DNA of 64,000 bases, taken from the NCBI GenBank assembly GCA_963971425.1, contig OZ020517.1, positions 6,140,501 through 6,204,500 of the forward strand. The letters run 5' to 3'. Below are positions 6,053 through 60,190 of this stretch, one piece after another (the stretch's first letter is position 1; every line of letters starts with the position of its first letter). A program made the translations under genes and the position numbers. Below the pieces are notes generated by a model. It did no database searches. It had not been told where the DNA came from and was given only the letters and a program-made list of their open reading frames with translations. This stretch comes from Bryoerythrophyllum caledonicum. Its lineage: Eukaryota; Streptophyta; Bryopsida; Pottiales; Pottiaceae.

Positions 6053-6064
6053 TCCTCAATATGG
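6053..6064. repeat. left target-site duplication of the MULE (candidate)
   Basis: TCCTCAATATGG lies immediately outside the left terminal repeat. TCCTCAGTATGG lies in direct orientation outside the right one at 20298-20309, giving 11 of 12 identical. MULEs usually duplicate 8-11 bp, so the core duplication is probably the central nine or so bases with one later substitution. Confidence 0.6.
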
Positions 6065-6069
6065 ACGAA

Positions 6070-6173
6070 GCTATCTTGCGTGCGGTGAGGTGTGAGCGGT
6101 GAGCGGTGAGGCATGAGCAGTGAGCGTTGCGACGTGAGCGGTGAAACATGAGCGATGAGCGGTGAGCGGTGAG
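6070..6173. repeat. left terminal inverted repeat built of GTGAGCG units
   Basis: Starts GCTATCTTGCG and continues as imperfect 7-bp GTGAGCG/GAGCGGT units to about 6173, followed by ATTAGTAACTTTTT. The first 53 bases align without gaps to the right end. The inner part (6123-6173) has extra, more diverged heptamers. Confidence 0.85.
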
Positions 6174-6180
6174 AAAAAAA

Positions 6181-6866
6181 TTAGTAACTTTTTTCTGGAA
6201 TTTGTCACTTTTTCCATATATGAAAGTAACTTTTTAACAGTACGGAAGTAATTTTTTTACTCTACAATAGTAATCAGAGTACAGGAGCAGAAATCTATGT
6301 TACCAAACATAACCTGAAATAAGGATTCCAAGACGGCCTTATGACCGATGAAACAACACTACAATATCAGGTTAATATTCGTGGACCTGGAACAGGGTAC
6401 ACGGTCCTATAAGAAGTGTTTCTGGTTTAGGGCTGAACGACGGTCCGAGACGACCATAAACTACCCGGGGGATAATGTCGGTTTAGGAGGAAGAATAAGG
6501 TGCAGGGTTCGATTCCTGTCTGTAAAATCTTGACCTTCACGAGATAGCCGATAGTAGGCAATCGCAGGATCGACATCAATCCCGGTGTAAAAAATTAGTA
6601 AAAAAAAAATTGAAGAGAGGAAAAAAAAGTGAGGAAAAAAAACTCCTGGAAAAAAAATGAGAAACAAGTGACAAGGAGAAAAACAAAGTAAAAAAAAAAT
6701 AAAAAAAATGTGAAGATAGAAAAAGTGAGAAAAGAGAGTGACAAAAAAACACTTAGCGATTCAAGAATAGATCAAGTTTTTGTCAATATAGCGGTGGCCC
6801 TGTAGTCTCACCATCTCTTACATATTATAGAAAATTGGTACAAGGGTTACTTCGTGAAATCAAAGA
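6181..6866. other. 3' side of the transposase gene; purine-rich, no gene
   Basis: Subterminal sequence of the MULE. Around 6600-6740 the plus strand is almost pure A/G (poly-A runs interrupted by GAGAAA). No coding frame is supported. GGGTTCGATTCC at about 6507 resembles a tRNA T-loop, but no cloverleaf can be built around it. Confidence 0.5.
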
Positions 6867-9800
6867 CTAGGTGCAGCCCTCTTTCTGAAGCAAGACTTCG
6901 AGAACACGCTTAATCTCGTTGAAGCTAAGACTAGGGGCGTGCATAAAAACATCCACCTCTGGATCTAGCTCACAAACAATGGTAAAGATAAAATAAAGGT
7001 GTTTGCAGTAACACCACTGAGGACGTTTGCCAAGAGACTTGCTCGACATGTCTTTGAAAGACAGGCAGTCACAACTAGGAAATTGACTGATAGAAAGCAT
7101 GTAGTTAGAAACCTTCGTAATGGATTTGGACTCGAACGAGAGAATGCAGCCAAAGCCGGGGTACGGGAGCATTAGAAGGTTTAGGACTTTTCCAAGAACG
7201 GAAAGCGCAGATGCGCAGCTGTTCCGATGACTCGTGGTTGGGGCCTTCGAATTCCGACGGATGTTCTTGCCAAATCTACGCTTCGGATGCTCATCGGAGT
7301 TCACCGGAGTTGGAACAGATTTCCAGTCAAACAATGCACCATCCTGAGAGAACAACTTCCGGGGAGAGAGCATGACGCGCTCGGCAAGTCGAAAACCGGC
7401 ATTTCCAAAACGAAGAATCTCGGCCTTCGTAAGGGACGTGCCAGCTTTCACCGGCCAAACGTCAGGGACCGCTGGCTTAGAAACAACCCAATCCCTCTTC
7501 GATCCCATCACACAACGATTGATGTCATCGTTACAAAAGAAAAATGCCATCTTCTCAAGCCTCGTCTTCTGATAGTTCTTCATCATGCCATTGTAGGTCG
7601 GTGCGGTAGTACTCTTGTTGTTCTGAACGATTCGAGCAGTACACTTCTTCTTCGTACCAGCCTGTTGAGCAAAACAAGCTTTTGCTGATGTCCTTGGCAG
7701 CCTCGCAATATGCCATTTGCTTTCGTCACAAGCAGTCTCCAACACACCCACAATATGGGTTACACGTGTTGAAGTTTCTGTTCGAGGAAGGCTGGCGGGA
7801 TTGGCTGGTGCATCCCCAACTGTTGCATACACACACTCGTCAGCAGTGAGGTCAATGGATATTCGTGAAGACGCCCTTGTCGCGACCCTGGGACGTGAAA
7901 CGCTGATTTTCTCTGGACGATGAGAATCGAACTTAGATCCAGGAGGAAGGTCTGGCTTCCGTTTCAGGGACAAGAAGACTTCCTCCCCTTCCAAATGCGG
8001 AAAGCGAGTGCAAAACTCGGCCGCTCCAGGCATATTACAGAAAGCCTCATGAAGTGCCTTGGAGTTCTCCGAACGCTGAGCAATGCGTTGAGCAACACGA
8101 AGTCGAAGCTCTTCCTTCCCAGGCCCTTGCCCTCCACGCTCTCCTTTAGAGAATTGATAACAAGCCACGACTTGCATGAACGCTCGAACCATGTCATCAA
8201 CAGTCGCAACGTATAAATCATTACCGCACTTTCCGGACTGCTGCAACCACTTATTGTGGACAGTCTCCACTAAATTGCAAGATGGCATTTAAGCTAATTC
8301 TGAATTTGAGAGTTCCTGCAGACCTCAATGAAAGAGTTGTTTGATTAATGAACTTGTTGAAGAAGAAGCATTACATTGGGATTGCGACCAATCTACTACA
8401 GCAAGACGGCAAATCTAGACAATGCACTACAAAGTACAAATATAAATCAAGGTTTGCCATATAGAAAAGGAAGAATCTGTAAGGCCACGAAAAAGAAAGA
8501 GGTCCAACGAGAGGAAGGAGTGCCGGCAGCGGCACACCCATTTTCCAAGATCAAAAACACAAGCCCGCTTGATCAAAAAATTGAAAACTGGAAACTGAAG
8601 GTTTAGGAGATATTGGAAGTCTGTTAAAAACTACACTGGTGAATTAAAATATTCGACAAAAGAAGACACAAAAGACTGAGCAATAGTTGGGATGGACTCC
8701 AGACTGATTCAGTGGACATGCCCATCTGGTGTGCCGTTGACGACACACCAGTGGTGGGCTCACAAAATGCGGTCAAATCGCATACATACGAGTGTCTTTC
8801 TGGAAGGTCGGTCGGCATGAACCCCATCACAGGTGTAATAGTAACAGGAAGTAGGTATGCCTTTAATGGCATATCCCTAGCAAGTGGTACAAAACTCACC
8901 TTAAAGGTCTACGAAGCGAGGGGTCTCCCGTTGACGGCACACCCTCTAAGCAAACAAGATCCAGACTGCCGTTACATTGGTACCGACAAATGTCTATAAT
9001 GGGATATTTTTTTAGAGAAAACATTCAGAAATTAGATAGACATGTGGCGTGAATGAAGAAAAAACATACCGATACCATAAACCCGCCCCATTGACGATAT
9101 CGAAAATGCCAGAAGGCTAGCCATAAATCAAGTCGTACGGCACCAGCATCAGATGTTGCGCCAGACGATAACCACCACGCTTTGATCGCCAAGTACTTTG
9201 CTTCGGCTTCCTCCATTGTCTTTGCATCCTTGTAGAGCTTGCAAAGCTGACGATGTTGCTCTTGAAGGTCGGCTCTAATGTCAGCCTTAGTGTGCTTTTC
9301 AAGGGATTGAGTCCAGTGAAATAGGCACGTTCTCTCCCGATTGTCCATCGGTACTGACGCATCACCGCTCCCGTAAAGAATGCGGACCGCATTCCAGTTG
9401 GCCTGTGCGCTATCAGTCATGAATCCCTTGAATGAAACTGTCGAAACATCGTGTCGTGCAACAACTACATTCAAGTTCTTCCAAAATACTAGCTGAGCAT
9501 TAACATCCTCGGATTGCATGTCACAGATGGCAATCGTCATCACACGGCAGTAGGTTGAATCGTACACATGACAACCCATAGTGGTCCATCCCTTTACTCG
9601 TTTGACATGGTCAAACATGATCCAGGAATCTTCAAGGTCTCCTCCAGGTTGCATTCGCTTCACTAGATCAACGCCGCTGCCAGGACCAACTTTTGCCATC
9701 TTAAACACAAACACCTTGTCCGAATCAACGCCTTGCCCAGGAAATCTATTCTCCTGAACAAAAGCCCAGTTGCTTGATCCTCGAAGTTTAGTGATGCTAT

Positions 9801-11172
9801 CCATTACACCAAAGCGTCTTAAGTATCTAAAAGTTGTAACCTCGTTTCGGATGCTGGGAGATGTCATCTGCTTAAATTTCTCCAAGACCGGCACTAGTTC
9901 CTCTAAAACTAGTGGCTTCTATGAAACTCCCTCTGGACACAGCAGGAGCTCACCGAGAAACTCCTTACTTGCTTCCAAAATAATGGCAGAGTTTGTGGCA
10001 GTTGGGGTCCGCTCCACTTGCTCAGAAATGAGGGTCTTCAGCTTCGAGGATGAATCTCGATAGTTGCCTAATTTAACAGGATGCTCATGTGTCCCGATAT
10101 GGACACATAAGCGGGACATGGTGTCCTTTCCCAGCACATAGTAAATTTTGGCTGGGCAGGTTCTTAAGCAGGTAGGCCGAACTCGTCAAAGTTTACACAC
10201 AACTGTAGATCCAGTAGGAGAATCCCCGCCGACACCAAAAACTGATGAAGAGGTGCCCTCCCATTCGGTCTCATTCACGTTTGACACTCTTTTCTTCCGC
10301 TCCAAGAAATCGCATTGAGAATTGAGACATTGCAAATGTCCCAAACATGAAGATGTTCTGAAGGTAAGGTTAGAATCATTCGCAATGTGAGTGGTCATGG
10401 TTCTTGTCCAACTATGACCGTCATGCTTCTTATCCATACCCAGGAGCGACCCAGCCTGTGATGACGAAATTCCTATCCCAATAGGTGGAAGCTCAAAAAC
10501 GATGTCTCCATTGAACGATGCTGGAAGGAATTCAACCTTCTCAACTCTAATGGAATGAAAATCTATCTTAGCTAAAGCAGATTTAGACCGAGATCGAGAC
10601 CAAAGATTTCGAAGACAGTCAATTGTACTAGACACAGGAAGATGATAAGGCATCGGAGGAAGAGAGGAAGACGCAGCTACTGGCGGAGGCATGGCTGGAA
10701 GTGACGGTTTCTTCTCGGATTCCGAAGGACTTAATCCTAGACTATCACTGTCGGAGTCATCGCTAAGGATGTGAATGATGTTTTCTTCTGGTTCTAATTT
10801 CACCTTATGCAGCAAAGGAGTCACCTGTGATGCTGTGGTAGACAACTTTGGTGTTAAGGATATTGAAGGACAGTCGACTGGACTATCCGTCGCTCCATAC
10901 ACTCAGTATTTCCCACACCGCAATAACCAGACTGATGCACTGTTTCGAATACATGAAAACTGAGCGACAGTGTGTGTGAGCTCTCCTGTGCTCTCATCAA
11001 ATTCTTCTTTTTCAACATGCAAGCATCCCTCATTGATATGGAAACGCTGACTTAATTGAAGGGTACTAACACTCGCCATTCCCTCTGTATCAGTGGAGAA
11101 ATAGATCGGGACACCTCCACTATCTCCGCGGATTACGACGGATCCCGCCACATGATCCGGCAAGGAAGCCAT
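6867..11172 (-). pseudogene. MULE transposase with SWIM zinc finger, four in-frame stops
   Basis: Two exons on the minus strand: 11172-9070 and 8315-6867. The intron 9069-8316 has GTATGT and CAG borders, phase 0. Read through, it has 1183 codons. The order is: an acidic, Ser/Pro-rich N-terminus; a zinc-ribbon-like part near 10320-10190 (SCLGHLQCLNSQC, then WEG); and the MULE DDE-type core with WIMFD at about 9612, FMTDSAQANW at about 9414 and CLFHW near 9320. The second exon begins with a VETVHNKWLQQSG motif often seen in such transposases. It ends with a SWIM finger (CDC at about 7070, CKH at about 7000), typical of MURA-like proteins. Stops: TGA 10905-10903, TGA 10185-10183, TAG 9918-9916 and TAA 8291-8289, all in one frame and with no frameshift. 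Its role would be cutting and joining at the terminal repeats. It diverges from the ParB-methyltransferase gene. Confidence 0.85.
8518..8539. repeat. GTGCCGGCAGCGGCAC hairpin copy in the transposase intron
   Basis: An inverted repeat with arms GTGCCG and CGGCAC and loop GCAG, the same sequence as the array at 14989-15755. Two more degenerate copies in the same intron are at 8727-8750 (TGGTGTGCCG, loop TTGA) and 8921-8944 (loop TTGA). Confidence 0.8.
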
Positions 11173-12547
11173 TCTAATCTGTGAACAAAGCTACGAAAGA
11201 GAAAAACTACGACGGAACAAGGGGTGCCTCTTGTACTGGCAGCAAGGTCGCACATTCACATCCGAGAGTGTTCAGAGTAATTGAAGGTGTTCAGATGGAC
11301 CGGGATATGTGCCAATTAATCTGTACCGCCGAAAGTATTTAACAAAAATAGATGGTGGAGATGGAAATTCGAGAAATATTGAGTACATAATGAGAACAGG
11401 AATCAAAGAGAAGGCTCGAAATCTGTTTGAGGACAATTTAAATCACTGGACCTGAGTACAATGAACAATAACAAATAGAATTAACGTAGGAGTGGTACAA
11501 TGGATTTATGCCAGAGGATCGTGAAAAGGATATGACGATCTCGCCTAGAATATGGTGGCAGTCAGAGAGTGAGCATTTGGCGGTTTGGCCGCATTTTGGC
11601 CAAGTGAATTCAAATCATTACTGCAATGGTGGCTTCATGTATAAATGCTGAAAGTAGCCGGCTCAAGTAGTCCGGCACAAATTATTGAACAACATTAACT
11701 AATCTAGTTCTTGACGGATGAAATCCTGAGGGTTTTTAGGGTCACTCTAATCAGACCAAGCTTACTTCTTTTCAAGACAGGCGCTATATATGTATCCAAT
11801 ACTCTTGATGTTGAGAGGTTAGACTTTGCCGATAGGATTCTTGATGTTATGAAAAGACGAAAGCAGAAGCTCTACTTTAGTGATCGTAGAACATTGATGA
11901 GAAGTAGAGAAATGAGAGGCATTGCTATGGGGAAGTCCAGTGAGTCCTTCCCTGAAACTTCCAAGAGATTAGAGTTTGATGAGGTTCAGAGAAGAGAGGA
12001 TAGGCAGAATAGTGCTCCACTAGCTGGAATTCCAGAATGTTATGATGGAAGCCGTCGATTCCAGGAGGAAACCAATGATCAAGCAGATGGTGAAATGAGT
12101 GAGGGGACCCAAGTAGAACCTAAGGGGAGGAATTTGACATTTACCTCTGGTACTGGAGTGAAAAGAACTTATTTGCGATGGGAGTGCAATTAGGATTTGT
12201 TGAATTGATGTTCTAAGTAGGGACGCTGCTTCTAATGTCGTATTCACTCATTACTTTATGCGGTTGTCTTAGGGTTCATTACGGTTCCGTGGGAGCACAT
12301 TTGCCTTTGCGCGTGACGAGGGGAATGTTACTCACTGACCTAATATCTATAATGATCAGAAAGTCTCCGATCTTGGAGTGGACCCGCAGAACCTGACGTA
12401 GACTTGGTGCATTGTTCGTTTGCAGGCGGCCGTGACGAGAGTGAAGGAGATTGTGTGAAGCGAGTGAGCGATCCTGGTCGTCCAAAGGAAAAGTTGGAAG
12501 AGCACTTGGGAGTTTGCGAGAAGCGCGTCTGCGGTGGACAGTCGATC
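11173..12547. promoter_or_regulatory. 1.4-kb region between the divergent transposase and ParB-methyltransferase genes
   Basis: The two start codons (11172 minus, 12548 plus) face away from each other, so this interval must hold both promoters or a shared one. I see no decisive TATA box. A 160-codon open frame at 11711-12193 (plus) encodes a charged peptide (DRILDVMKRRKQKL, then acidic stretches) that I do not recognise. It could be a 5' exon, a remnant of another gene or chance. Confidence 0.4.
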
Positions 12548-15500
12548 ATGGACGGTGGCGAAGCAAGTTCGGCACGTCGCTCTACAGGTTTGTGTTTGCT
12601 TGCTGATAAATTTAACTTCTTTCCTTCTGGGTTCCTCATTATTCTTCGCAGTTTCATCTGCCATGCTTTTTGGGGTTTAGGGGGGTAAGAAAATACCGCA
12701 TTTGCTTTCGATTTCTCGTATTTCGGTTGAAGGTGTTTTGGGTTCGTTTCAGTTTGTCAAGGTTTAGGGTTTGATAGCCATATTGGGTTATCCCTCGATG
12801 TATATCCATCCAAGATATGCTGTCAATGTAGACAGGGTCTGAAGGGTGGGTGTGCCGGCGGCGGCATACATACTTCCGTGATATTTCATTTGACGGATCA
12901 CGGGCAGAGGTTGATTGTGTAAGTTACGGCATAGTCTAGGAACCCTCTGTCAATGTCGACAGTCTTCGTGGACAGGTTGAGACATACGCGAACCAAGTCA
13001 ATAACGTGGTCTCGATGTAGTGAATTTTCGACGATCTTACCCCGCTCCCTCTAACTCTGCAGAGCTATTAGGTAGGACTTAATCACCCCTATTATATAAT
13101 GAAGCACCATCATTCGTTACAGTCTATACTCTGAAAGACCCAGAACTCGGGTTGCATTTGATTGGAGGTCGGTTTATAAAGCGCCATGTGAATATCTATA
13201 GTATAACTCTATAACAACGTATCCTTTGTTTTTTAAGTCGTTCACAAGGTGACAAGCACTGTCACGTTCCATGAGATGCATATTGAACTTATGATCTCGC
13301 AGTCCATACTATGTTTTAGAGAGATATTCAGGAGGTGGTCGTTAGGATTTTATGTTTATTTTCCATTACCAGGATTTGGGAGCAAAATCTGAGATTATCC
13401 TTCCAATCCTTTTAATTTATTTATCTGTCCTTGTAGAAATTGAGAGCCAGTCGGAGGTTTCAGTTCGAGGAGACAAAGCTGACACTGAAATGGAGACTCA
13501 GAACTCCTTAAACTCTGACTTGCAGCCATCTGGTAAGTTGTTGATATGCAGTCAAGTTCTCATTGTCATGTGATTTAACACTAACAATTATTTATTGGCA
13601 GCGTGTGCACCTGATGAGAATTTGAATGATGATGGGGCGGAAAGCGAAGATGTCAAAGTTTCCAGACCTGTACGGACTTCTACGGAGCCACTGTCAGCTG
13701 CAGATTTGGAGAAGCAGATGGACGAGCTTGTTCTGAAGGAGATAGTCAACACGACCGCTCTTCTGGATGGGTTACGATTTCAGCCTAAGGAGAAATCAAA
13801 GCTAAACATCCCATTATGCCGGATGATTGGACTACCAATCGTTCGACCACACTTGAAGAACGATGTCATGGGTCTGGGATCACACTTTCTCAAGAACGGT
13901 TACATGGAGGGCTCTGGTGTGTTCTATGTAGCTGCTAAAAACCACGAGGGTAAGACTGTAGATGTTTCTGACGAGGTCCTCAAGGATTGGAGTCGGGCGT
14001 GGATCTCTGCTAACGAAGCTTTCGAGTTGAGGCTGAATGCCGATCCAAACTTGAGAGTTTTTTCAGGAAAAATGTTCCATGTTTGGGATGGCAATCATCG
14101 GCTGCAGGCTTGGCTTCCAATAATTAACCGGGACCATGGTGAAGACCCATGTTGGCATTATTCGGTGGAGTCTATACTGCACAACGTGAATGGATATGTT
14201 CCAGTCCTTCTCTCCGCACTGCATCAAGTAAACTGGTAAGAATCCTTGCTAATATTGATCATCACATGACTTAAACATGTAGACTGTCCTAATGAATGCT
14301 TTAAATCTGTGTTCAGGCGAAACCAGAAGTCATTCGTGACGACAAATCTGGTTCACAAGCTATACCAAATTCAGGGTATGGCGGGACAACCACTGAACTA
14401 TTTTGAGAAACTTGTCTCAAAAGCGGAAATCAATGCAGCTGAAGCCAAGCAGAACTCTGTCAAGCGGACGTGGTACACGCTGACCTTGAAGTCATTGAAC
14501 TCAGTTCTTTATCAGGTCAGCCTTCGGCCCATCTACTAATCCTGATACTCTTAAGGAATTATAGGGTGTGCCGCTGCCGGCACACTCCTAACACCCACAC
14601 CTGAGCCTTTTCATATGTTTTTTAGTGACATTTAGTCATAGAGCCTAGGCTTCAATGAAGAAGGCTTTGGAATTCCTGCAGCAGCACTCCATGGCACAGT
14701 GGTGCTACGTCTTTCAATTTCTCTGAGGTCGTATGCTTGTGGCTCCTTTCCCATAGTGTTGCCATAGATTGTTAATTGTTTGGATAATTTTGGTTTAGTT
14801 GCGCGAACTCAGGGGTGTGCGCGGGGGTGTGCTTACAAATGCATACCTTAAGAGCGCAGAGCTTCTTCATAAAAGCATGGCTCTTTGGGGTTTTACAGTT
14901 CAGGCAAAATTCTTGAGCACACACCTGAGAATTGAATCGGTTTAGAAGATCAAATTAGCCTCTTCGTTTGGCCTCTTCATTTCGGCAAGGGGTGTGCCGG
15001 CAGCGGCACACCTCCACAGCGCCTTCAACACATCATTGGCATGGCGCTGTGGAGGTGTGCCGCTGCCGGCACACCACCTGCGCAGTCACTGGAATAATGC
15101 TTCAGTAACAATAATGATTTCATTAGCCTCCAAAGGTGCCTCCAGCGAGTGTGAAGGGGGTGTGCCGGCAGCGGCACACCTCTACAGCGCCTCATATTTT
15201 GTCTAAGCATGGCGCTATGGGGGTTTGCCGCTGGCGGCACAACCCCTTCGCACTTGGCGAAGCCATGGTTGGGATGCTGAATAGATTATTTTTCTGGCCG
15301 ATAATCACCTCAGCCGGGTGCTCAGGGGGTGTGCCGGCAGCGGCACACCTCCACAGTGCCATGCTGCACTCTCTTAGTATGGGGCTGTGGAGGTGTGCCG
15401 TTGCCGGCATACCCCTTGAGCACCCATCTGAGCCAGTGCTCGGAGGCTGAAATGATTTGTGTCTCGCTGAGAATTACCTCAGTAGGGTGCTCAGGGGGTG

Positions 15501-18500
15501 TGCCGGCAGCGGCACACCTCCACAGTGCCATGCTGCACTCTCTTAGCATGGCGATGTGGAGGTGTGCCGCTGCCGGCACACCCCCTGAGCACCGAGCTAA
15601 GCCATTGCTAGGAGGTTGAATAGATTATTCTCTCTCGCTGTGCATTATCTCCGCTGGGTGTTCAGGGGGTGTGCCCGCAGCGGCACACCTTCACACCGCC
15701 TCGCTTCTTCGACAATGATGGCACAATGTGGGTATGCCGCTGCCGGCATACCCCCTGCTTAATTTCGTAAACTAAAAATCTGTTTTCGTTCCTCACTAAC
15801 CCATGCTGTGTCTACTTCCCCGACCAAATACTGTCCCTCTCGACTGTCCCGACTACATACTGTCCCTCTCTACTACCCCGACCCTTACTGTCCCGCTATG
15901 ACACCTTGACTCTCTCTAGCGGACCGTTTACTGTCCCGGCTAATTCTCCCTCCCTACTTTCCAGAATCCTTAATGTCCGGACCACTCTTAGTCCCGACTC
16001 CCTACTCACTACTGTCCGCACTCCATTCTCTCCCTCACCCTTAGTCTCTATCACCCTTACTCTCGCTCTACCTCACTCTTACTCGACCTTACTCACCCTC
16101 TCCCTTTCTGTCCCAGCTTCTTACTCTCCCTTACACAACTGTCCCTCTCTCCCTTCATCCTGTTTCTTATTGTCCCTTACTCTCCTTTTCTTCCAATTAC
16201 CGCTCGAACTTTTTTTTAGTATGCCACGGACTTCCATAATGTCTTATTCAGCAAATAGTCATTTACTCCAACATCAAATCTCATTCTCTCTGTCTTACTC
16301 TTTCATTTCATTTCGGTCAACGAGCATTGGCTGGAAAGAATGAGCACGGGGTGTGCCGGCAGCGGCACACCTCCATACCGACATGAGGATATATAAATGC
16401 TTCAAGCTGTGGAGGTGTGCCGCTGCCGGTGCACCCCCACCTGACACACCTCTCGCGTACTTACATTCATTCTCATATTCTTTACTCTTCCTACCTTTTA
16501 ATCTCATTCAATGTTCTTCCCTTTCAATCTCTTTCAGTGGTTGTAACGGCACCGGCATACCTAAACTTTCCTCTTTATCCAACCAAAATTTGTCTGGCTA
16601 GGGAGAGAATTAGTAATCCCTCCAGAGTCACCTGTTCTCTATAGTAGTTTGTTTTATGAGATGTCGCCAGTGACAGCCTTTACGATGACTCATGGTTGTT
16701 TAGTTTGTATGTGGTTAGGATTTCTATATCATTCATAAATTGTGCTAAACAAATTTGGTGTCATTTGAACAGCAAGAGATCGGGGAGGCGGCTGCTGTAG
16801 CGCAAAGGAAATTTGCTGAGAGATTTCCGGATCCTAATGAATGGACCTCCACTAATGCTCAAGACTTCGTGAGAAAAGCAGTTGAGAAGATGAAGTTATC
16901 AACGCTTTCAGAGCTAGGGAAGCAGCTTCTAGTTGCTGATCCCAAACACACACCAAGATTTCTCACACAAGTGAAGTTGCATTACGAAGCACATGAAGAC
17001 GACGCCGAGATGACTCAAAAGAAGCTTTGCATACTAGCGACGTCCGCCATGGACCCTGTTATGAAAGTCAAATGGCTGCAGCGTTGGAACAGAGATGGAA
17101 ATCTTCGTGAATCTCTCAGGTTTCCAAAGTCAAAGTTTCCCGACAGTGAGTTCCCTGAATGGCTTAATCGCGCTACTTGGTGGGCTCAGGTAGGGACTAT
17201 TCATATAGTTAGAGTACTTATAAATTCCAATAAGTTTTGTCATGCTTACTTCATACATTCATTTTGCAGCTCTCTAGCGAAGCGGAGCGACTCTTGGAAG
17301 GTTCGTTGCTGGATATTGGTGTGGACGTCAATTACGACCCTCAAGTCGGTGAGCCAATCTCTAGAATTTCGGACTATATTGAGGAACAACGGATTCAACT
17401 GTGGGATACTGCGTTTTTTCGGGAGTTTAACGTGGACAGGGGCATTCACAAGAATTATGATCCTGCAAATCAATGCGGATTTCCATCGGCATTGTGGCGA
17501 ACCTTGTACCGGTACTTTAAGTTCATTTTGATGCCCGCTAGAGCTGTGACACGCAATCCTCCATTCTTTGCGTCTTACCTGGATCCCAAGAGCCCATCTA
17601 CAATGATCTCTGAGGGAATTAAGAAAGATTGGGCTCCGCAGCACTGGGAGCGGTGCGGCTGGTATCTTGACTGCCCAGTTAAGAGTCCACCGCATTTTGA
17701 CATTGCACTGCGAGATAGCATTCAGCCAGAGCTCATTGGGGTGGAGACCAATGCCCAAGCGGCTGCCACAGCAACGAAATCGAAGGGTAAGGGAAAAGCT
17801 GCTTCAAAGAAGTCTCGTGGATCTTCATCGATTGACCCTGTTGTTGAGGTACTTATTCCCTCTCCTATTGCCGCGGAAGACACTGCTCCAGCTGCAGAGG
17901 GCTTTCCAGAAGTTGAAGCATCTCCAGAAATTCCAGGCTCTCCTAAACATCAGCCATCGGTGGTTAAAAGGAAAGCTTTTCATGACGCCTTTTCTCCACC
18001 GACTGTGTCAGCTTCGAAGATGGGTATTAGAGTGGAGCTTTCATCTCTCCAGGATTTGATGAATGGAGGAAAAGACCACCAGTGCATGATTCGACTCAAC
18101 GAATTCATGCTAAAGGTAAATGCTCGAATCAAGTAAACTTCTTCATTCTGATTCGCAACTCGTTGAGTTCTGCCTATTTTATGAGATTGTTTGGATCTAG
18201 GAGAAGAGCCTTTGGCAACACTCTGATTTCGCAGTCTGTGTTCTAGTTTCAGTTTCAGTTTTATTTGTTGGCTTCAGCATTGGAATGCATTTAATACCAG
18301 GGTTCACTGGAGTTTTATGGGAAATTGGTTTACTTAGTATTTTAACTCCTGAAATCCAGTTTGAAGAGTCGTATTTGCAGCAAGCAATATTTGCCTTCTT
18401 CTTCCCTCATTCCTATCTAAATCAGCTTATGTTCTTGCAGGTGTGTCCTTCCTCTTCGAACCCGGCCCGTAGCGCAACCTGTCCTCACCGAGGATTCGAT

Positions 18501-19732
18501 CTTATTCTGGGGGACATCCCTGAAGGCCTTTGTGTTCCATCAATTTCGCGGGATGCAAAAGACATTCCTTCTTGGAACGTTTATGCTGAGCCGATAGTTG
18601 AGGCCCTGTTTGAATTTGCTGATTCTTTCCTTCATGAACAGGGTTGCATTATGGTTATTATTCCCGAGTCTGTGCAGATCCGCACTGACGTCCGGTCGTA
18701 CGCTGCAACCTACGAGTTCAAGTTACTCCGCGAGTGGTGGGGAGTTAACGAGTTACCGTTGGCGTTGCCCACTGATCCATCAAAGAAGGTAAGATATCAT
18801 TTTACCAAAAGAGATGCTTCATATATATTTTCTCCTGCCACCTAATTTTGTATTTCTGCCTCATTTTTGGTTTTACAGACCCACCGATTTCGGATCCTTC
18901 TCTACGTGAGGAACGTGTTACCCTTGGAGTCCTTCACGTACATTGTAAATGCGCAGCTGTCAGAGACTGGTTGGGGAGTGGAAGAGACTGATGTCCTACT
19001 CAATCACACCGACTTCACGACCCAGAGTATGTGGGGTAATGTTCCATGGAGGGCTGTAAGGGAGAAGGGCATCATTTTTTACCAAATGCTATTCGAGGCC
19101 CTCACCAAACCTGGCGCTGTGATCTTCGATTCATTTGCTTCCACAGATATCGCTTCACCTTCTCTACTTTCACAGTAGTAGTTTTCTATTTTATTTCTGG
19201 TGTCAAAAGATCTAACTATTTCTTGTCATTCAGGAAACTCTCTTCGAGCATGTCGCGCTGCTGGTCGGCACTTCCTTGGCTTCGAATCTAATAAGGCTAT
19301 TTTTGAGGCGTTGTTGAAGCCACTTTTCATGCCGAAGCCCCCGCAATCCGGTTCCGTTCAACCCACCTCCGGGGACCTCAGCATTGATGAAGATCCCCCA
19401 ATCCGCAAGATCTCGAAGAGAAATCGATTGAGTAAGTAAGTCTGATTTTTTAGTTTTACTTCTGTAGTTTCTTCATTCTCTTAGACTAATTTGTGACCTT
19501 GCTTTCTGCTTTCAGTTTGATGGCTTTGGCAGCTTCACCGGATCGAGATTTCTTGCTCCCTTCGTATGCAGGCCAAGCTGCACACCTGATGGCAGACGTA
19601 GTCTCCCCTTTGTCTACTTCCACTTCCTCTAGTTCTAGTTTTGCTTTCAATGATTTCCTGGATCTCGAGGCCTTAGAGGACAGTGACATTTTGCTTTCAT
19701 CGTCGGATAGTTATTGTAACTCTTCTTCCTAG
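12548..19732 (+). CDS. ParB-like / beta-class amino-methyltransferase-like protein, MULE cargo
   Basis: Ten exons join with consistent phases: 12548-12587, 13437-13532, 13602-14235, 14317-14515, 16773-17189, 17270-18115, 18441-18788, 18879-19146, 19234-19435, 19516-19732. They encode about 1088 residues without an internal stop. ATG 12548 is the first ATG in the open frame. An acidic N-terminus is followed by a ParB-like domain (about residues 112-240) with the box WDGNHRLQAW near 206. Next come a helical middle, a Lys-rich stretch near 631 (KSKGKGKAASKKSRG, possible nuclear signal), and a methyltransferase domain. Motif IV lies in DLILGDIPEG near 764, and motif I plus the following strand read FASTGNSLRACRAAGRHFLGFE near 945-965. 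Motif IV before motif I is the beta-class order of N4-cytosine/N6-adenine enzymes. DIPE instead of DPPY casts doubt on activity. The exon 8 donor is AT, not GT. ParB-methyltransferase fusions are known mainly from phages and bacteria. Confidence 0.72.
12849..12870. repeat. GTGTGCCGGCGGCGGCATAC hairpin copy in intron 1
   Basis: A slightly diverged copy of the element-specific hairpin, with loop GCGG and arm end ATAC instead of ACAC. It sits inside intron 1 of the ParB-methyltransferase gene. Confidence 0.75.
14563..14588. repeat. GTGTGCCGCTGCCGGCACAC hairpin copy at the start of intron 4
   Basis: A single hairpin in the opposite loop orientation (loop CTGC), 48 bases after the exon 4 donor and about 400 bases before the array proper. 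Confidence 0.8.
14989..15755. repeat. array of five long hairpins at about 169-bp spacing (intron 4)
   Basis: Five units start at 14989, 15156, 15325, 15494 and 15665. Each is about 90 bp long. One arm reads GTGTGCCGGCAGCGGCACAC and continues CTCCACAGCGCC; after a 15-20 base loop comes the inverted copy GGCGCTGTGGAG, then GTGTGCCGCTGCCGGCACAC. Every arm is thus itself a small hairpin, so the unit is a hairpin of hairpins. Spacers of about 80 bp share CTGAGCACC and GGAGGCTGAA-like words. Arms keep complementarity but differ slightly between units. A sixth, isolated unit is at 16348-16438. Open frames through the array on both strands are artefacts of the repeat. Possible roles are protein binding sites, transcript hairpins or small-RNA source; none is shown. 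Confidence 0.92.
15780..16340. repeat. pyrimidine-rich tract with CTGTCCC motif, intron 4
   Basis: About 550 bases of the plus (transcribed sense) strand are dominated by C and T. The words ACTGTCCC, CGACTGTCCC and TTACTCTCCC recur irregularly. It lies between hairpin units five and six. No coding evidence. Confidence 0.75.
16348..16438. repeat. sixth long hairpin unit, isolated
   Basis: Same nested-hairpin layout as the array: GTGTGCCGGCAGCGGCACAC, then CTCCATACC, a loop, and an inverted arm ending CCGCTGCCGGTGCAC. It is separated from unit five by the pyrimidine-rich tract. Confidence 0.85.
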
Positions 19733-20237
19733 ATACTTTTCATGCCTTGCGTATATCTTGGCATCAAGTTTCTTTGTGACCTCCAATCTCAAAGCATTTT
19801 CCCTCATCTGATTTCTTTGTTCCATGCATTCTATAATTTCTCTTACTTTGTAGCGGTTAATGCCTATACTAGCACAATATTCTCCCAACACTATTCCTTA
19901 TGTCTCGTATAACTACTTGCCTCTCAGGTTTTGAACACTTTACGATCTATGCACCTTTGATAACACTCCGATACCCACTTCTTGAAACGGATATCTTAGG
20001 AGTTTTGCCGGGTATCAGCGTATACTCTAATTCCAATTACATTTGTTGGACTTCCCACAACGGACAACGTCTGCAGATATAGGGTTCCCTCTGACCTCTT
20101 CTTCTTGAGTCATATCTAATAATTTTTTCTATTTCTTTTCAGGTAACAGACTATTATAGAATTTGAGGACCCTTTCAATTTACTATTAGTAACTTTTTAG
20201 ACGTCCCTAAACTTCAAAGTTATTACCCCTTACCGCT
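19733..20237. other. 3' flank of the cargo gene, no gene
   Basis: Between the ParB-methyltransferase stop codon and the right terminal repeat. No supported gene. ATTAGTAACTTTTT at 20185-20198 repeats, in direct orientation, the sequence just inside the left terminal repeat (6180-6193). Confidence 0.5.
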
Positions 20238-20290
20238 CACCGCTCATGGCTCACCGCTCACCGCTCACCGCTCACGGCTCGCAAGATAGC
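20238..20290. repeat. right terminal inverted repeat of the MULE
   Basis: The reverse complement begins GCTATCTTGCG and continues with regular GTGAGCG heptamers, matching 6070-6122 without gaps. The right copy is more regular than the left, which carries several substitutions. Confidence 0.85.
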
Positions 20291-20297
20291 ATTCCCC

Positions 20298-20309
20298 TCC
20301 TCAGTATGG
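20298..20309. repeat. right target-site duplication of the MULE (candidate)
   Basis: TCCTCAGTATGG, a direct repeat of 6053-6064 with one A/G difference. The few bases between it and GCTATCTTGCG differ between the two ends, so the exact element border is uncertain by about five bases. Confidence 0.6.
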
Positions 20310-36700: not shown

Positions 36701-39600
36701 GCTCGCGCAGAATTTCTGGATCGTTTCACATGGGAGCTAGTTGATGGACAACACATCCGATCGGCATGCAATGATTTAGCAATCAAGCACGTGGAAATGG
36801 GTGTTATTACGGAAGCTGAGTACGATGATCTATTTTAAAGGTGGCCTGCACACATAGTAATTTATGACGAGCCCCAATATTTCATCGAATTATCTCGTCA
36901 AGTATGCGTACATTGATTAAGACAAAAAGCATTTACAATTTTGTTATTTGGAAATATTTGAAAATCAAGTATATTGTGAAGAAAAAAGAAGTTGTGCTTG
37001 TATATGTAAAGTATTCAACTAAAATTATATGTGATAAATTTAGGAAAAACTACATCCGTTTAAACTTATATTATATAGATCAAACATGAAGCATGGATCA
37101 TAGGTAGGAGATGCGCCTATATTTGCAAATATGATCGTAAATTAATTTATAGGGATTTTGTCCGTATGTGAAGGTGAACAATGATCGGGTAGCGAGATGT
37201 CCAATTATGACGGTAGGACAATGCCTTCGAAAGATCAGGGAAACATGGATTTTCTTTGGACGAGTTGGGCCGAGTACAGCTAACGATTCACAAGCCATCA
37301 TTGACGAGCGCGCCAGATTTTACTCCACATTGCATGCGGCTACAGGCATTCCACCAAGAGAGGAACATTTCAAGCTGTTGGAGCTCAGGACAAAGTTTGA
37401 GGTTCACCTACGTTATGCTTGCATGCCAGACGATACTAATTTTCAAGCGGTGCTCCGTATGTGTGACGACTATGATGTAGGCCTAACCCGATACAGCAAA
37501 ATCAAGAACCACAAGGCTTCTTCAAAAATGGTGATCACGTGGCTTCGTCCTTTGAGATGCCTCACTGATGTATCCATACGGATCTATGCTCTGAGATGTT
37601 CTCTAGCACATGGAGAGCAATCCTTATACTTTGCAGACTTTAAAGAAGCGGCTGCAGGACGTCAGATAGGATATGCAGTCTTGAATGCATGTAGATGGAT
37701 TTTGAATGAGCAGCAACCGGGGCACTATGCATTCAAAGCCCTTATGGACGTGAATGTTGTGCGGGAATACAACATCTCTTCAGAGGAAGTGATGCTTATG
37801 TATGATGATGCGGGGACATCATTTGTGGAAAAGTGGAAGGGCCCCATATGTGAGAGCTTCAAGGAACAGAGGAAATACGAGAGCCTCATTCCAAGCAGTA
37901 TTCGAGATTTCATGCGCTACAAGTTTGAGGGAGTCAGACCAACTATACCAAAATCTGATTGGATTTTAGAAGCGGATGTGAGTTCTAACAAACGTCAAAA
38001 TTGCAGGAGTCATGTACAAGTTACGAGGTCAATATTGGATTCGAGTACAGGCACCGTTGGTGATGAATGTTTGTGGATGGTCGACTGCAACTGGGCTGTG
38101 GTAGATGGAAGCAGCATACCTCTAGCGGATGTGCCCAAAGTACTTGAGCATGTTATGAAGTGGATGCCGAAGGTGGGGCGATGGAATGTTGTTTTTATGC
38201 TTCCACCCATGGAGAATACTTCAAACCTGGTGGAGATTTTGAGCCATGTAGATGGATTTGAAGACATTGTTGTACAAGAGGGGACGTACACATTTTCTCG
38301 TCAGTCTTCAGATTCAAAGAAGGCGGTTTCATATGGAAAGCACAAACTGTACATCAGAGCCATTGGGGGATTGTTGTATGTGATGCGATATCCTAGAGAA
38401 TCAGACTGGCGTTCGAATGCGGCTCTCGAGAGCGGAGTAGAGTGGCCCACATCTTGGGTAGAACCTACAACACCATGGACACCAAGTGAGTGGAATATAC
38501 GAGCACGAAATCCAAGAACTGTGATGAGTATCATACAGAGCTCTGCCCCGCAGTATTGGATGGTGGCACTTGTTGGTCTTACACACATGGTTCCAATTCT
38601 AGTAGACCATGGGATCGAGACAATAATGGTGTTTGACGGGAAGGATGATATCCGATCACGGCTGTTGGAGTGGATGGCAACAAGAGATGAAGGCGATTCA
38701 GTTCCAAGGAGGGAGACGAGATCCGCTATGCAGGACGCATCGGTTTCAAGTCATGATATAGGGTCAAACGAGGATTTTAACAAAGATGTTGGCGGTTCTG
38801 CGAAACAGAAGGAGGTAGCATCAGAAGGGTGTTTTATGGAAGGCCATGCAATTGATGATACCAAGGACAACATAGGCTCCACATCAAAGGAGAATATTGT
38901 GTATGATGGTGGGGAAGGAGCTTGTGTTCAAGAGGCTTCTGAAGATGCTATGAGGAAGATCTATGTGCAAAGAAACTCTTTGGATGCTCACTTAGTTCAG
39001 GCTCATGGAGAACCATCTATGAAGGACATGTCGTTGACTAAAGCAACTAGGAACAATATTCAGGAAGTCGGTGATGAAGACGAAAACCATGCTCGAGCCG
39101 TTGTTGGTGAAGACGCACCGGTATCTTTTCAAGGCCATATTCAACATGGCATTCTCCTTCAGCCACAGTTTCCGGAGATGTTGAGTGCCACTGATACAAA
39201 TGTGAATATTATGGGTTCTTTGGGGGCAATGAGTGATATTCACACTTCAGAGCTTGGCAGTTCTATCAACGCGGATAAAGAATGGATTTCACGCATTAGT
39301 GAACTCAATTATGAAGAGCACGGTGATTATTATGTGGACCGATTGCAACACATGTGGATTCATGAGGACCCTTCTCGTCCCATCAATCCGCTTGACAGTG
39401 ATCGTTGGTGTACGTTTGAGGAGAAGTACTTCAAGAGGATTGAAGTTCAAGAGCTGCTGCTGCGACAAGCATCAAAGCCAACAACAATGGCAAAAGATTT
39501 TGTAGCTCAAGGCATTTTTTTGGATTCTGTACCGAGTACATCTTCCACCGGCAATATGCGTGACGACCTAGAGAGAGTGCTTGAAACTCCGCCGGAATGA
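33798..39600 (+). pseudogene. second ParB-like / methyltransferase-like gene, two in-frame stops
   Basis: Four exons fit in phase: 33798-34321, 34628-34934, 36371-36901 and 37153-39600, totalling 1270 codons. TAG at 34158-34160 and TAA at 36836-36838 interrupt it; no frameshift. Exon 1 begins MASTTMVYKRK and is unfamiliar; exon 2 is a basic/acidic linker (KPKRQRQ). Exon 3 (about residues 300-450) has VDGQHIRSACNDLA, which I read as a ParB box (DGxHRxxA), then a beta-strand-like AHIVIY. Exon 4 has a helical part. A Rossmann-like stretch follows: WMVDCNWAV near 764 in the place of motif IV, NVVFMLPP as the next strand, and ALVGLTHMVPILVDHGIETIMVFDG near 930 in the place of motif I. Order and spacing parallel the gene at 12548-19732. 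Catalytic residues are poor matches, so activity is doubtful. A low-complexity, acidic tail follows. Homology is my visual judgement. No transposase or terminal repeats were found around it. Confidence 0.45.
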
Positions 39601-55793: not shown

Positions 55794-56345
55794 TTATTTG
55801 TTTCCATCGATATTGGCATGGGCTCTAACTTTGTAAAGGATTGTCATTTGTGTTTGGTTTGGTAGCATTTGGACCATTGACATTAAAATAGTTTGATCGG
55901 GGTGGCTATTGTGGTGGGTAGGATGTGTTATTTCGGTGTTTAGTAGATAAAGTGCATTAATACGGTCAGTGAATATGTGTGCCGATTCATTGTTGTATTT
56001 TGTTGTGATGATTTGTAGTGTTTTGTGTATGGCCATAAGTTCTGGTCTAAGGATGTTTTGTAGTCCATGGAGTCTTTTGGCTAATTTAATTTCTTTGATA
56101 GGATTATATATGCCATAGCTAGCTTTTTCTTTGGGCCGGTTTCCCGAGCTAATTTGTTCTGGCGGTTTGAAAGAGCCATCAGTATAGTAGCTATATGCCG
56201 GGTTAAATTTTGGTAGGGTTGCGGTTTGGTAGTTTGAGAGGGATGGAGGTAATACTAGGTAGTCTAATGTATTATTGATGTAGTTTAGTTTTGACCATTT
56301 TTTGCTTCGGTTTATGGGGGTTTGTATAGTTGGTGATGGGGCCAT
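55794..56345 (-). pseudogene. LINE RNase H domain
   Basis: YYTDGSFKPPE gives the first catalytic Asp, LRPELMAIHKTL the Glu and AHIFTDRINAL the second Asp of type I RNase H. The frame ends at TAA (55794-55796) in GNK-stop-ADKLAKEG, just where the last conserved Asp would follow, and stays open in the same frame beyond the stop. The domain would remove the RNA strand during copying. Confidence 0.75.
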
Positions 56346-56591
56346 TTTTGTGTAAAGGCGGTGTATGTTTAGAGTATTTGCTACGGATGTGAGTTCGGCA
56401 AGTTGTTCTAGGGTGCCAAGGGTTTGATTTTGGTGGTGGACACATATTATTTGTAGTGTGGATGATTCAGTCCTGGGCTTTTTTAACTCAAGTGGGATAG
56501 TGGGTTCTTTGTATGGAAGTGAGTCTGCTTCAAATAGTACAATGATATGGGAGTCTGTAAATGGGTTTGAGTGTTGATTAAAGTTTTGGTA

Positions 56592-57755
56592 TCAATTTTT
56601 GTCCGGTGTGATAATAAGTATAGATGTGTGATGTGGGTCAATTTTGGCAGCAAGGCGGGCCCAATGTAGTGCTTGTCGAGTTTCTTCTTCATTGTGAGGG
56701 TGAGCTATATTATTACCGACCCATTTATAGTCAAAGGCCTTTCCCATGAAACCAAATATTTTATCTCTTTCAAAGGGTGAATAGAATTTTTTTAGTTTGG
56801 TGGAACATGTGACGGGGGAAGAGAAGTATGATTGTTCGATGTTAAAGGTTGAAATTAATGAGTCTAGAATGAGTGTGGGTATTGTGTATTGTGCACTTTT
56901 GAGGGGATTATTTTTTGGAATGCGGTATTTATATCTTTGGTATAGCCCAATTAGTTTGGTTTCAAATGGTTGGGTTGTTGGTTCGATGTTTGCAGGGGTT
57001 TGTAGTTTCATATTGTATTGGTTCCATAGCCATTGGGGTCTAGTAGTAGAAATAGTGTGTAAATGTCGGCCATTTTCTTCATATAGGTGGGCTTGATTTC
57101 TTTCTATTTTAATTGTGTTTGAGAGTGTGAGAATATCATTTTTGAAATTACATTCCGTTGTATAGATGTTTAGGAGTGGAATGATTATAGGTGGAGTTCC
57201 GGATCTTGAATCTTGTAGTTGTTCTTGGGGATGGTGAGCTTGATTGATTTCCAAGTAGAATTTATTTTTAATTTTTTGATAGTATTGTTTTAAATTTGCA
57301 GTGTTATATTTGGAAGTATAATGGTGGTGTCTTGGAAAGAGGTTTCTTTGAGGAAGCCATTTGTTGAATGTGTTGTTGTTGTGTTGCCATTGGCATAAAT
57401 ATCTTGTAGAGGTATTTTGTATATTGTTGGTACCTAGATGTTGTATATGTTCATGGCGTATGATGTTATTAATAGGATATATGGTGGGATTTTTGGTGAT
57501 GTATGTTGGAGGATGGAGGTGGTGTGGGTGTAAGGGGTTGGGAGGGTGGATTGGTGGTGGGGTAGTTCTTGGGAGGGTGTTGTTGATGGTGATGAATGGG
57601 TATTGGAGTATGTGAGAGTATGGGTGTATGTTGCAAGGGATAGCGCATGTGGTGGGGCATGTTGGATGGCAAAAAAGTTGTTTGGCAACATTTAGGGCAC
57701 TCTTGATTAGTTTGGATGGGGTGAAGTGGAAGTTTTTGAAGTCCTCATTATTCAT
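56592..57755 (-). pseudogene. LINE linker region between reverse transcriptase and RNase H
   Basis: An open frame of 387 codons, rich in His, Pro, Asn and Thr. The last 60 residues (FGFMGKAFDYKWVGNNIAHP through ALHWARLAAK to TSILIITP) resemble, from memory, a PCIF1/methyltransferase-like segment found in LINEs of algae and other eukaryotes, with the catalytic NPPF replaced by AHPH. That assignment is weak; the position inside the LINE is firm. Confidence 0.45.
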
Positions 57756-57987
57756 GATGTGTGTGCCGTTTGATAAAATAATTTGTTTTAATTCAAAAAT
57801 ATTTTTTGAGTGGAGTTTTTGTTAAAGTTTTGGGAGAGTTGGGCGTTGAGCGTGTTGTGGTTTCGTGTTTCTTGGCGCCAAGATATTTCTAATGATGTTG
57901 GGTCAAAGAGGAAATTTGGAAGTGTACTCTTGAGGTGAATTTTAGCTATGTGTTTTAATAAGAAAAATGTGCGAGTTATTGGTGATC

Positions 57988-59640
57988 TTATACGATCCGT
58001 TTAATTCTAGATATATTTTCGGCACCACCATATCGAGCAAGTATATATTGGGTTAATCTGTTATATAATTTTCCGAGCCTACCTTTGTCATTTAGGGCAT
58101 TTTGTAATTGTTCCCCTATACATCGGAGATAGGCATTGTCGAGGGAGAAAGCTTCAAGTCCAAATAGGATATGTGGGAGTTGGGTTATTGCGTTTGACAC
58201 GCATTTTGGCATACCACATATGGTTTTTTGTATGGCTATAATCTTTTGATCTAGTTTTTTGATAGCTTGCATAGAGTATGGTACCGCGTAGAAGCTGTAT
58301 GCTACACCTGGGCGTATTACGGTGTCAACCATTTTAATTTTTTGTTTCATAGTGGCCGGACAGGTTGTTAATTCTTTACATTGTTTAATCAGTTTTGTGG
58401 TCGTAGTATGAATTTGGATTTTCCATTTTAGAGAGGGAACAAGATTTGTGCCTAAGTATACATATGATTCATTTTGGTGTAGTATGGGGATTGGTTGACC
58501 ACGGTAGTTGATGTTAGAAGCTTGCATTAGGGCTTTAAATGTAGTTGGATTCATTTTGGATTTATTTGGACATCCAGTGGCAGCGCATTTTGGGACACCT
58601 ATGTCCATCTCAATCCATTTACAATATCTATCTATTTTATCAATTTGTATTTGTAGTGATTTTATCTAATTAGTTATGGTAGCAAGATCATCGGCGTAGG
58701 CGGCGGAGTTTATGGTGATTTGTGATGTACCAAAAGTGTATCCATTATTGCCTCTCTCTAGCCATCTAAGTAGTGGTTCTAAGAATATAATGAATAGGTA
58801 TGGACTAAAGGTATCTCCTTGTATAGTTCTTCTATAAATGGGGATAGGCTTAGTCTTTCCAAAGTGCTCTCCGGCAAGTAAGTAGATGATTGGGAGTAGA
58901 TGTTTCCAATTAGTATAGTTGCATCTTTTGGGTACCCTATATCAGTCATTATTGCTAATAATCAAGCGTGGTCTATAGAGCCAAAGGCGTTTTTGAAGTC
59001 AACATATAACACATATATGTCTTGATTTGTGAATCGTGCATCTTCTAGTGCAGCTATTATGGTTTGTATTTGTCTAGAGGTACTTCTCTCTGCTGTAAAT
59101 CCTTCTTGACTATTGTGTAGGATTTTAAATTTTTCACCGTATGAGGATAGTATTGAGGTAAGTGTACTGGTATAAAGTTTATATATTGTGTTGGGTAATG
59201 CAATTGGTCTATGATTTGATAATATTGAAGGATCTCCTTTTTTGTATAGTAAAATTGTTGTACTTGTTTTCCATGAGGCTGGTATTTGTTTTTGTTTATA
59301 GCAGTGAGAAAATAATAGAAATAGTAAATTATGAAATCTTGGGGGCATGTTTTTGAGTATTGAATTTGGTACACGGTCTGGCCCTGGGGCTTTGTTATTT
59401 CCGAGGTTGCGGAGACATGTGTCGTACATGGCTTTGTTGAAGTATATATGCAGTGGAATTTCAGGTTTGCCTCTTTTGTTTAAGGTAAATCCATCCAAAT
59501 CATGCCATGGATATTGGCGTACTGCACATGTCCAATTGCTTGGGTGTTGTGGTTGATAATTACATGTTGGTACTATGGGTCTATTGTTTTTTGTTTGTTG
59601 GTTGAATATTTCATTTGCAATGTCTTCGGGACTAGTTAGA
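57988..59640 (-). pseudogene. LINE reverse transcriptase
   Basis: Frames 59498-58962 and 58608-57988 belong together with the stretch between them. Conserved blocks in order are NNKAPGPDRVPNSILK, SNHRPIALPNTIYKL, QEGFTAERSTSRQI, YVLYVDFKNAFGSIDHA, IQGDTFSPYLF, the YADD catalytic box at 58698-58687 and the thumb-side YLGTNL. TGA at 58964-58962 and TAG at 58668-58666 interrupt one otherwise continuous frame. It would copy the element RNA at the nicked target. Confidence 0.85.
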
Positions 59641-60190
59641 ATGTTATTGTATTGGTCAATGATACAGTCTAGTGGTGGAGATTCGGATTTTTTAAATACT
59701 TTTCTGTTTATTTCTTAGGGTTGGCTTCGTATAATTGTTTGTATTCTGAGATGGCTTTTTTAATATTGTCTTGGGAGTGTTTTGTGATTACTTTTTGGGC
59801 TTGTATTTTGGCATTTTTTGCAATTAGTGCAATGTTTTTTATCCATGTATCATGAGGTGGTCCTGGGGAGGTGGGGCAGGGATTTGGATATGGTGCAGAG
59901 TTAGTTATTTGTTACATATGGGATGATTACGCCATTGTGGGTTATTTTGGACGATTCTAATAGTTTTATGTATTATATGGTAAGTATCTAGGTGTTGTTT
60001 CCATATTTTAGAAAGTTTGCGGGGTAGGTAGCCGCCTTGTTGCGATGTTTAATTTGTCATTTGTGGTATTGGTTGGGCTTTACAAGTTTGTTCCAATGTA
60101 TCGGAGAAATTATTGATAAGTGTATCTAGGATGTGGCATGTTTCGTGCCATTGTGTTTGAGAGAGTTGGTTATTATTTTCAAAGATGTTT

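Follow-up and report, generated by a model that had tools for sequence, protein, structure and literature searches.

A MULE-like transposon family in the moss Bryoerythrophyllum caledonicum with a conserved ParB-like/methylase-like gene and palindrome arrays: a candidate self-recognition system

The transposon and its relatives

The analyzed stretch of 64,000 nucleotides (the window; contig OZ020517.1 of the Bryoerythrophyllum caledonicum assembly GCA_963971425.1, positions 6,140,501–6,204,500 of the forward strand) contains a large DNA transposon spanning positions 6063–20297. The element carries a transposase gene on the reverse strand and, on the forward strand, a second gene for a protein with a ParB-like N-terminal part and an N4/N6-methylase-like C-terminal part. 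Its noncoding stretches contain sites of one palindrome, TGCCG-N4-CGGCA. An earlier note, made from the sequence alone, had described the region as a Mutator-like element (MULE) with a ParB-methyltransferase gene as standing cargo.

The left terminal inverted repeat (6063–6173, forward strand) consists of GGACGAAGCTATCTTGCG followed by 7-bp repeats of the GCGGTGA type; the right one occupies positions 20220–20297 (reverse strand). Over 57 bp (6070–6126 versus 20234–20290) the two ends are 89% complementary, and their outermost seven bases are GGACGAA (left) and GGGGAAT (right). The ends are directly adjoined by the two copies of a 10-bp target-site duplication, TCCTCAATAT (6053–6062) and TCCTCAGTAT (20298–20307), which differ at one position. 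Ten further elements were fetched by their paired ends from elsewhere in the 437-Mb genome and, together with the window copy, form the comparison set. Checked in the same geometry in all eleven, the duplication is exact in seven, has one mismatch in three (the window copy and two others) and is absent in one (E47). When flanks were swapped among elements as a control (110 pairs), the best agreement still had five mismatches. The end pattern GCTATCTTGCGNNNGGTGAG, with up to two mismatches allowed, has 797 + 831 genome matches versus 5 + 5 for the reversed control. The terminal repeats and flanks are thus not chance matches, and the inverted repeats, the 10-bp flanks and both genes form one transposon unit, as the earlier note had proposed.

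The transposase is encoded by a first long exon (9076–11172, reverse strand), with boundaries set by eye, and a C-terminal open frame of 473 amino acids (6867–8288, reverse strand) containing a SWIM-like CxC...CxH motif. A candidate D...C2H motif was also recognized; both motifs were found by eye and have no profile match behind them. The Pfam scan of the transposase protein returned insignificant matches only, and a PDB search with it gave no significant match. The transposase exon has 132 scored matches in the genome, derived from 2546 first-look candidates. The Pfam MULE model PF10551 has 138 genome places, derived from 150 scored among 384 candidates, and when all rows were compared by script, no transposase place (0 of 132) had one within a distance of 1.5 kb. 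MULEs are described as having terminal inverted repeats with an 8–11 bp target-site duplication (PMC6446971, in its available text), and this family has such ends, with a duplication of 10 bp. We call the element MULE-like: the duplication, the inverted ends and the motifs seen by eye are the basis for the MULE assignment of the earlier note, but the Pfam MULE model does not recognize the transposase.

The window copy has three in-frame stops in its first transposase exon. In its second gene, exon 9 is followed by the donor AT (19147–19148, forward strand), while GT is found in all 12 other copies read there; in E53 the donor itself is GT and the last exonic base before it is changed. Because of the stops and the changed donor, the window element is regarded as an old, decayed copy of a large transposon family with intact-looking relatives. 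The first-exon open frame is 719–776 amino acids long in 10 of the 30 fetched transposase loci (L014 and L015 being alike) and shorter in the other 20. In the group of matches 81–82% identical, 14 have transposase open frames of 757 amino acids, e.g., C1:9568684, and ten copies with frames of this length have an identical transposase score. The ParB-like exon is 99–100% identical among 13 copies of this subfamily, one of them with a stop. The near-identical copies and open frames indicate that the subfamily of C1:9568684 was probably active recently.

The second gene and its protein

The second gene (12548–19732, forward strand) is divergent from the transposase and in our draft comprises 11 exons, of which the small exon 7 is uncertain; the earlier note had counted ten. 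Its product of 1099 amino acids consists of the ParB-like part, a middle part and the methylase-like part. Exon 3 (13602–14235, forward strand) encodes the ParB-like part with a GNHR motif, and exons 8–10 (18441–19435, forward strand) encode the methylase-like part. The introns lie at matching places across copies and diverged subfamilies. The total sequence compared amounted to about 300 kb, covering the diverged subfamilies in part.

The genome search proposed in the earlier note gave a clear answer: both the transposase and the second gene are present in all ten elements fetched by paired ends. The second gene was also found in two loci fetched, for the second-gene side only, from transposase matches 82% and 85% identical to the window; the exon-wise protein identity there is 41–77%. 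By coordinates, at least 67 of the 132 transposase matches have a second-gene match within 20 kb, and in 66 of these 67 it is divergent and upstream, an arrangement for which the chance expectation is about 0.4%. The count is a lower bound, since it uses the 193 second-gene matches among those listed.

The second gene is under purifying selection. Between the window and the ten copies, the ratio of nonsynonymous to synonymous divergence (dN/dS, Nei-Gojobori) is 0.08–0.12 for the whole gene and 0.12–0.17 for the methylase part alone; the medians over copy pairs are 0.14 (55 pairs) and 0.20, respectively. For the transposase, the values are 0.14–0.38 against the window, with a median of 0.20 over all 55 pairs and single pairs up to 0.83. 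The occurrence in all fetched copies, the linkage and the selection support the view that the second gene is a regular component of the transposon and not a one-off capture, so that the description of it as standing cargo holds.

Synonymous divergence between the window (6867–19732) and elements E39–E57 is uneven: 1.2–3.4 in the ParB part, 0.6–0.7 in the methylase part and 0.3–0.5 in the transposase. Such differences between parts of the element hint at recombination between copies.

A third small open frame (11849–12193, forward strand) is located between the transposase and the second gene. It codes for 114 amino acids with a basic start, MKRRKQKLYFSD, and the start MKRRKQKLYFSDR is conserved. 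The frame is matched at least partly in all ten fetched elements and in locus L059, and its median dN/dS is 0.47 (52 pairs).

The Pfam scan of the second protein returned a single match, N6_N4_Mtase (PF01555), to its C-terminal part. This match was obtained in all six copies scanned, with a best E-value of 1.9e-6. The protein of member 1 scores 27.7 bits, above the cut-off of 26.7, and the whole 1099-amino-acid protein scores 25.6 bits, just below it. In the PDB, the methylase part matches DpnA best (E = 0.0017), followed by CcrM (E = 0.048). The profile signal stems from the S-adenosylmethionine-binding end. The C-terminal part is thereby confirmed, at profile level, as N4/N6 DNA methylase-like with altered catalytic motifs.

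The GNHR motif of the N-terminal part is conserved in all 13 copies and agrees with GxxR, which the available text of PMC12704722 gives as Box II of the ParB-CTPase fold. Neither a profile search nor a PDB search with this part returned a significant match, and we designate it ParB-like at motif level. Of the fusion named in the earlier note, the methylase half thus has profile support, with altered motifs, and the ParB half has the motif but no significant profile match.

The search for prokaryotic and viral relatives by short conserved peptides found none, either in viral contigs (queries A1, A2 and the transposase, A3) or in genome contigs (A1 and A2). In a tblastn search of phages, the ParB-like part had no match, and the methylase part matched 288 records weakly, with a lowest E-value of 0.05 among those listed.

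Palindrome arrays and their flanks

In the window copy, TGCCG-N4-CGGCA occurs between the two transposase open frames (8521–8534), in intron 1 of the second gene (12853–12866) and as an array of 11 sites in intron 4 (14569–16367), with starts at 14569, 14995, 15058, 15163, 15226, 15332, 15396, 15501, 15565, 15735, and 16354. Thirteen copies contain 157 sites in total, every copy having from 2 to 19. The spacer is exactly four bases in all 157; the other spacers from 0 to 20 yield one site altogether, and the runner-up inverted 5-mer at 4-base spacing occurs 10 times. With the core relaxed to GCCG-N4-CGGC, 169 sites are found, 157 of them flanked by T and A. The centre of the palindrome is pyrimidine-purine in 147 of the 157 sites.

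The sites are confined to noncoding parts, as none of the 157 overlaps the coding stretches detected by tblastn with the exons used (about 6.2–6.6 kb per whole element in the 11 elements). Of these sites, 87 fall between second-gene exons 4 and 5, and 30 are located between the transposase frames. No site occurs in the remaining 49.8 kb of the window. Genome-wide, 4180 sites were counted versus 164 for the reversed control, while the same palindrome with a 5-base spacer gave 84 versus 130 for its control. First-order simulations produced on average at most 0.02 palindromes per copy. Chance origin of the palindromes is rejected by the simulations, the genome count and the spacer control. The first 67 sites listed, all on C1, form seven clusters; six of these, as judged by eye, overlap independently found element parts or lie within a few kb of them, and the seventh (C1:145941–156217) has most of its spacer sequences in common with two of the other clusters.

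The arms extend outwards symmetrically, and the extension depends on the subfamily: GGTG..CACC in the group of the window copy, GCAC..GTGC in L060 and GGGG..CCCC in L059, where two sites were read. The first type has 777 genome sites and the second 146, versus none in either control. The position of the array also varies, being intron 4 in the window group and upstream of exon 3 in L060. For clusters formed from the first 50 sites listed per flank type, a transposase match was sought within 10 kb. It was found for five of the 11 GGTG..CACC clusters, all five belonging to the 90–97% group, and for five of the 15 GCAC..GTGC clusters, all five belonging to the 82–84% group. As far as listed, the site flank appears to follow the subfamily, a link resting on ten clusters because 16 of the 26 have no listed transposase nearby.

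An array of another subfamily (C1:1075986–1076939) has alternating spacer sequences and a spacing of 63/64 bp, about six helical turns, with one gap of 127 bp. In the arrays of the copies compared, the frequent spacings of 63–66 and 105–108 bp are close to multiples of 10.5 bp. Such near-helical phasing is suggestive but confounded by tandem duplication, and for this reason we do not rely on it.

A candidate self-recognition system and its alternatives

In our estimate there is an even chance that this MULE-like multi-gene DNA transposon family possesses its own self-recognition system. Taken together, the features suggest an element that labels or protects its own DNA while residing in the host. 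The protein of the second gene would bind TGCCG-N4-CGGCA as a dimer, its ParB-like region helping it to load onto the palindrome, and would gather on the copies of its own subfamily. A model for the consequences is VANC of the Arabidopsis VANDAL elements, which, according to the available text of the sources cited, binds in a family-specific manner a short motif arrayed in the noncoding DNA of its own family, including introns (PMC5735166), and takes away silencing marks, with the protein and its motif diverging in parallel (PMC5735166; PMC10398659). By analogy, and less certainly than the binding, the bound protein might keep own-subfamily copies expressed or movable, countering host silencing. 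One route would be N4/N6 methylation of the DNA; another, considered in view of the altered catalytic motifs, would be for a methylase fold that has lost its methylating activity simply to sit on the DNA.

We further propose, tentatively and with more doubt than confidence, that the ParB-like/methylase-fold protein and the parS-like arrays co-evolve so that each subfamily recognizes itself. If so, VANC would be joined by another, independently evolved system of sequence-specific anti-silencing or self-marking, and the ParB-methylase proteins of transposons would have in the palindrome their first candidate for a binding site.

Several points weigh against this interpretation. The palindromes might also be bound by a host factor, by the product of the third frame or by the transposase itself, and the anti-silencing effect of the second protein is drawn by analogy with VANC. 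The ParB-like part is without a significant profile or PDB match, and its synonymous divergence is near saturation. Textbook catalytic motifs are departed from in all copies covered (motif IV in 12 of 12, motif I in 13 of 13). In single copy pairs, dN/dS of the second gene rises to 0.70, and one pair reaches 1.42 in the methylase part. The number of sites is variable, with three in E51 and two within the 6 kb fetched of L059; tandem duplication accounts for part of the array, as in the tandem array called by Tandem Repeats Finder (TRF) at 15155–15695; and the majority of the flank-type clusters lack a nearby transposase, as noted above.

The second protein may instead be a working N4/N6 methylase that methylates the element's own sites, with silencing or anti-silencing following from the mark. 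We regard this as unlikely, although it is a serious contender. Active N4/N6 methylases usually have a DPPY-like motif IV and a motif I of the form FxGxG. Of the 12 copies covered here, 11 have D[IF]P[DE]G as motif IV, and motif I contains FAS in 12 of 13 copies. E47 is the exception for both, with DISEG and FSS. These forms speak against a working enzyme. That they have been kept across diverged subfamilies points to a methylase part whose function was altered and not lost. The PF01555 match in all scanned copies and the purifying selection on the methylase part favor a working methylase, as does the algal precedent (PMC12477816), in whose available text the same domain pair comes with the same suggestion.

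Alternatively, either the transposase or a DNA-binding protein of the host could target the palindromes, with the second protein acting otherwise, e.g., by protecting or processing transposition intermediates. Transposase binding sites are normally located at or near the ends of elements, whereas the sites in the window are internal (8521–16367), more than 2 kb from both ends, which carry 7-bp GCGGTGA repeats of their own. Even so, the transposase subfamily varies with the flank type just like the second gene, and we rate this alternative as rather unlikely but not negligible.

It is improbable that the arrays represent tandem-duplication debris in which a chance palindrome was spread by the element. 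The spacings of 63–66 and 105–108 bp and the TRF array do show local duplication, but the same core with the exact spacer is found with different symmetric flanks and at different places in the three fetched subfamilies.

The action of the palindromes as RNA hairpins in introns of both genes is very improbable. The arms with a 4-base loop could fold, and most sites (117 of 157) are found either between the transposase frames or within intron 4 of the second gene. In an RNA stem, however, G-U pairs should be favored among the mispairs. At arm positions 1–5 on the sense strand, in sites located between second-gene exons of the window group, there are 345 paired positions and mispairs comprising 30 G-T, 27 A-C and 68 others. 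The near equality of G-T and A-C fits sites on double-stranded DNA rather than RNA stems, and the hairpin reading was rejected on these counts. The core fixed by sequence and the pyrimidine-purine centre also speak against it, and we read the palindromes as putative protein sites on double-stranded DNA. An Rfam search of the whole window at the gathering threshold gave no match.

Ordinary capture of a host or bacterial gene taken up once by a plant transposon is equally improbable: the domain pair is known from phages (PMC12704722, in its available text), but a recent one-off event is refuted by the second gene being present in all ten fetched copies and two diverged subfamilies, with matching introns, under selection and linked to at least 67 of the 132 transposase matches, while an ancient origin by capture is possible.

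The self-recognition proposed here has partial counterparts among known systems, compared through the available text of the sources cited. The earlier note presented such a fusion on a plant MULE as apparently undescribed, and in this respect it is superseded: transposon-borne proteins with ParB and methylase domains have already been reported, as predictions, from algae, among them Ectocarpus and green and red algae, with the suggestion that they bind and modify their own element (PMC12477816). The protein from Ectocarpus has the same reported domain pair, a similar length (1104 versus 1099 amino acids here) and is likewise encoded opposite the transposase. The features of such accessory proteins, namely both parts in one protein, orientation opposite the transposase and location inside the element, are all found here, the ParB part at motif level. 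By description, the algal element differs in being of the Sola1 type and 21.5 kb long, compared to the 10-bp duplication and MULE-like ends here, and its account mentions no binding site, for which the palindrome is a candidate here. Within the literature searched on ParB, methylases and transposons, as far as its available text goes, no palindrome array was found reported for such elements. Three things are new within this literature: a transposon with MULE-like ends and a 10-bp duplication carries the domain pair, the evidence for linkage and selection comes from many copies, and the palindrome arrays are specific to subfamilies.

The VANDAL elements resemble this family as multi-gene Mutator-type elements with motif arrays in noncoding DNA and introns, partly in tandem repeats and differing between related families; subfamily-specific arrays in noncoding parts are likewise present here. 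The VANC21 motif is described as a 9-mer in one orientation, in contrast to the 22-bp dyad here, and the Pfam scan of the second protein gave no sign of relatedness to VANC. Maize MuDR, a Mutator element too, likewise pairs its transposase with a second gene (mudrA and mudrB; PMC6446971), mudrB being apparently needed for integration, but a palindrome array is not part of its description. Transposons bringing their own epigenetic enzyme include fungal elements with TET/JBP dioxygenases and the HarbingerS and MuDR families of Phytophthora with SET methyltransferases (PMC12730594); these enzymes are different, and a ParB-like part is not in their description. Phage fusions of the ParB-CTPase fold with N6_N4_Mtase have the same reported domain pair and also occur in mobile DNA (PMC12704722), but the phage searches described above returned nothing for the ParB-like part and weak matches for the methylase part.

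Bacterial ParB/parS is similar in its clustered palindromic sites and in the GxxR motif present in the ParB-like part; it differs in that the protein described here has no significant ParB profile match and belongs to a eukaryotic transposon. The parS site differs from the palindrome in sequence and length.

Elsewhere in the window, a retroelement-like stretch (55797–59714, reverse strand) has a reverse transcriptase match (RVT_1, E = 3.1e-8) and, slightly short of the cut-off, one to RNase H (E = 3e-5). An open frame located between the two has a match to PCIF1_WW (E = 1e-9), the family of a cap adenosine methylase; a retroelement carrying a PCIF1_WW-type domain would be unusual. An open frame of 815 amino acids (37153–39600, forward strand) has no Pfam match at E-values up to 0.01.

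If the proposed self-recognition is true, DNA transposons would have evolved sequence-specific self-recognition against silencing at least twice, starting from unrelated proteins. With a candidate target in the 22-bp palindrome, a specificity series in the flank types and many copies, the family makes the suggestion of self-binding directly testable.

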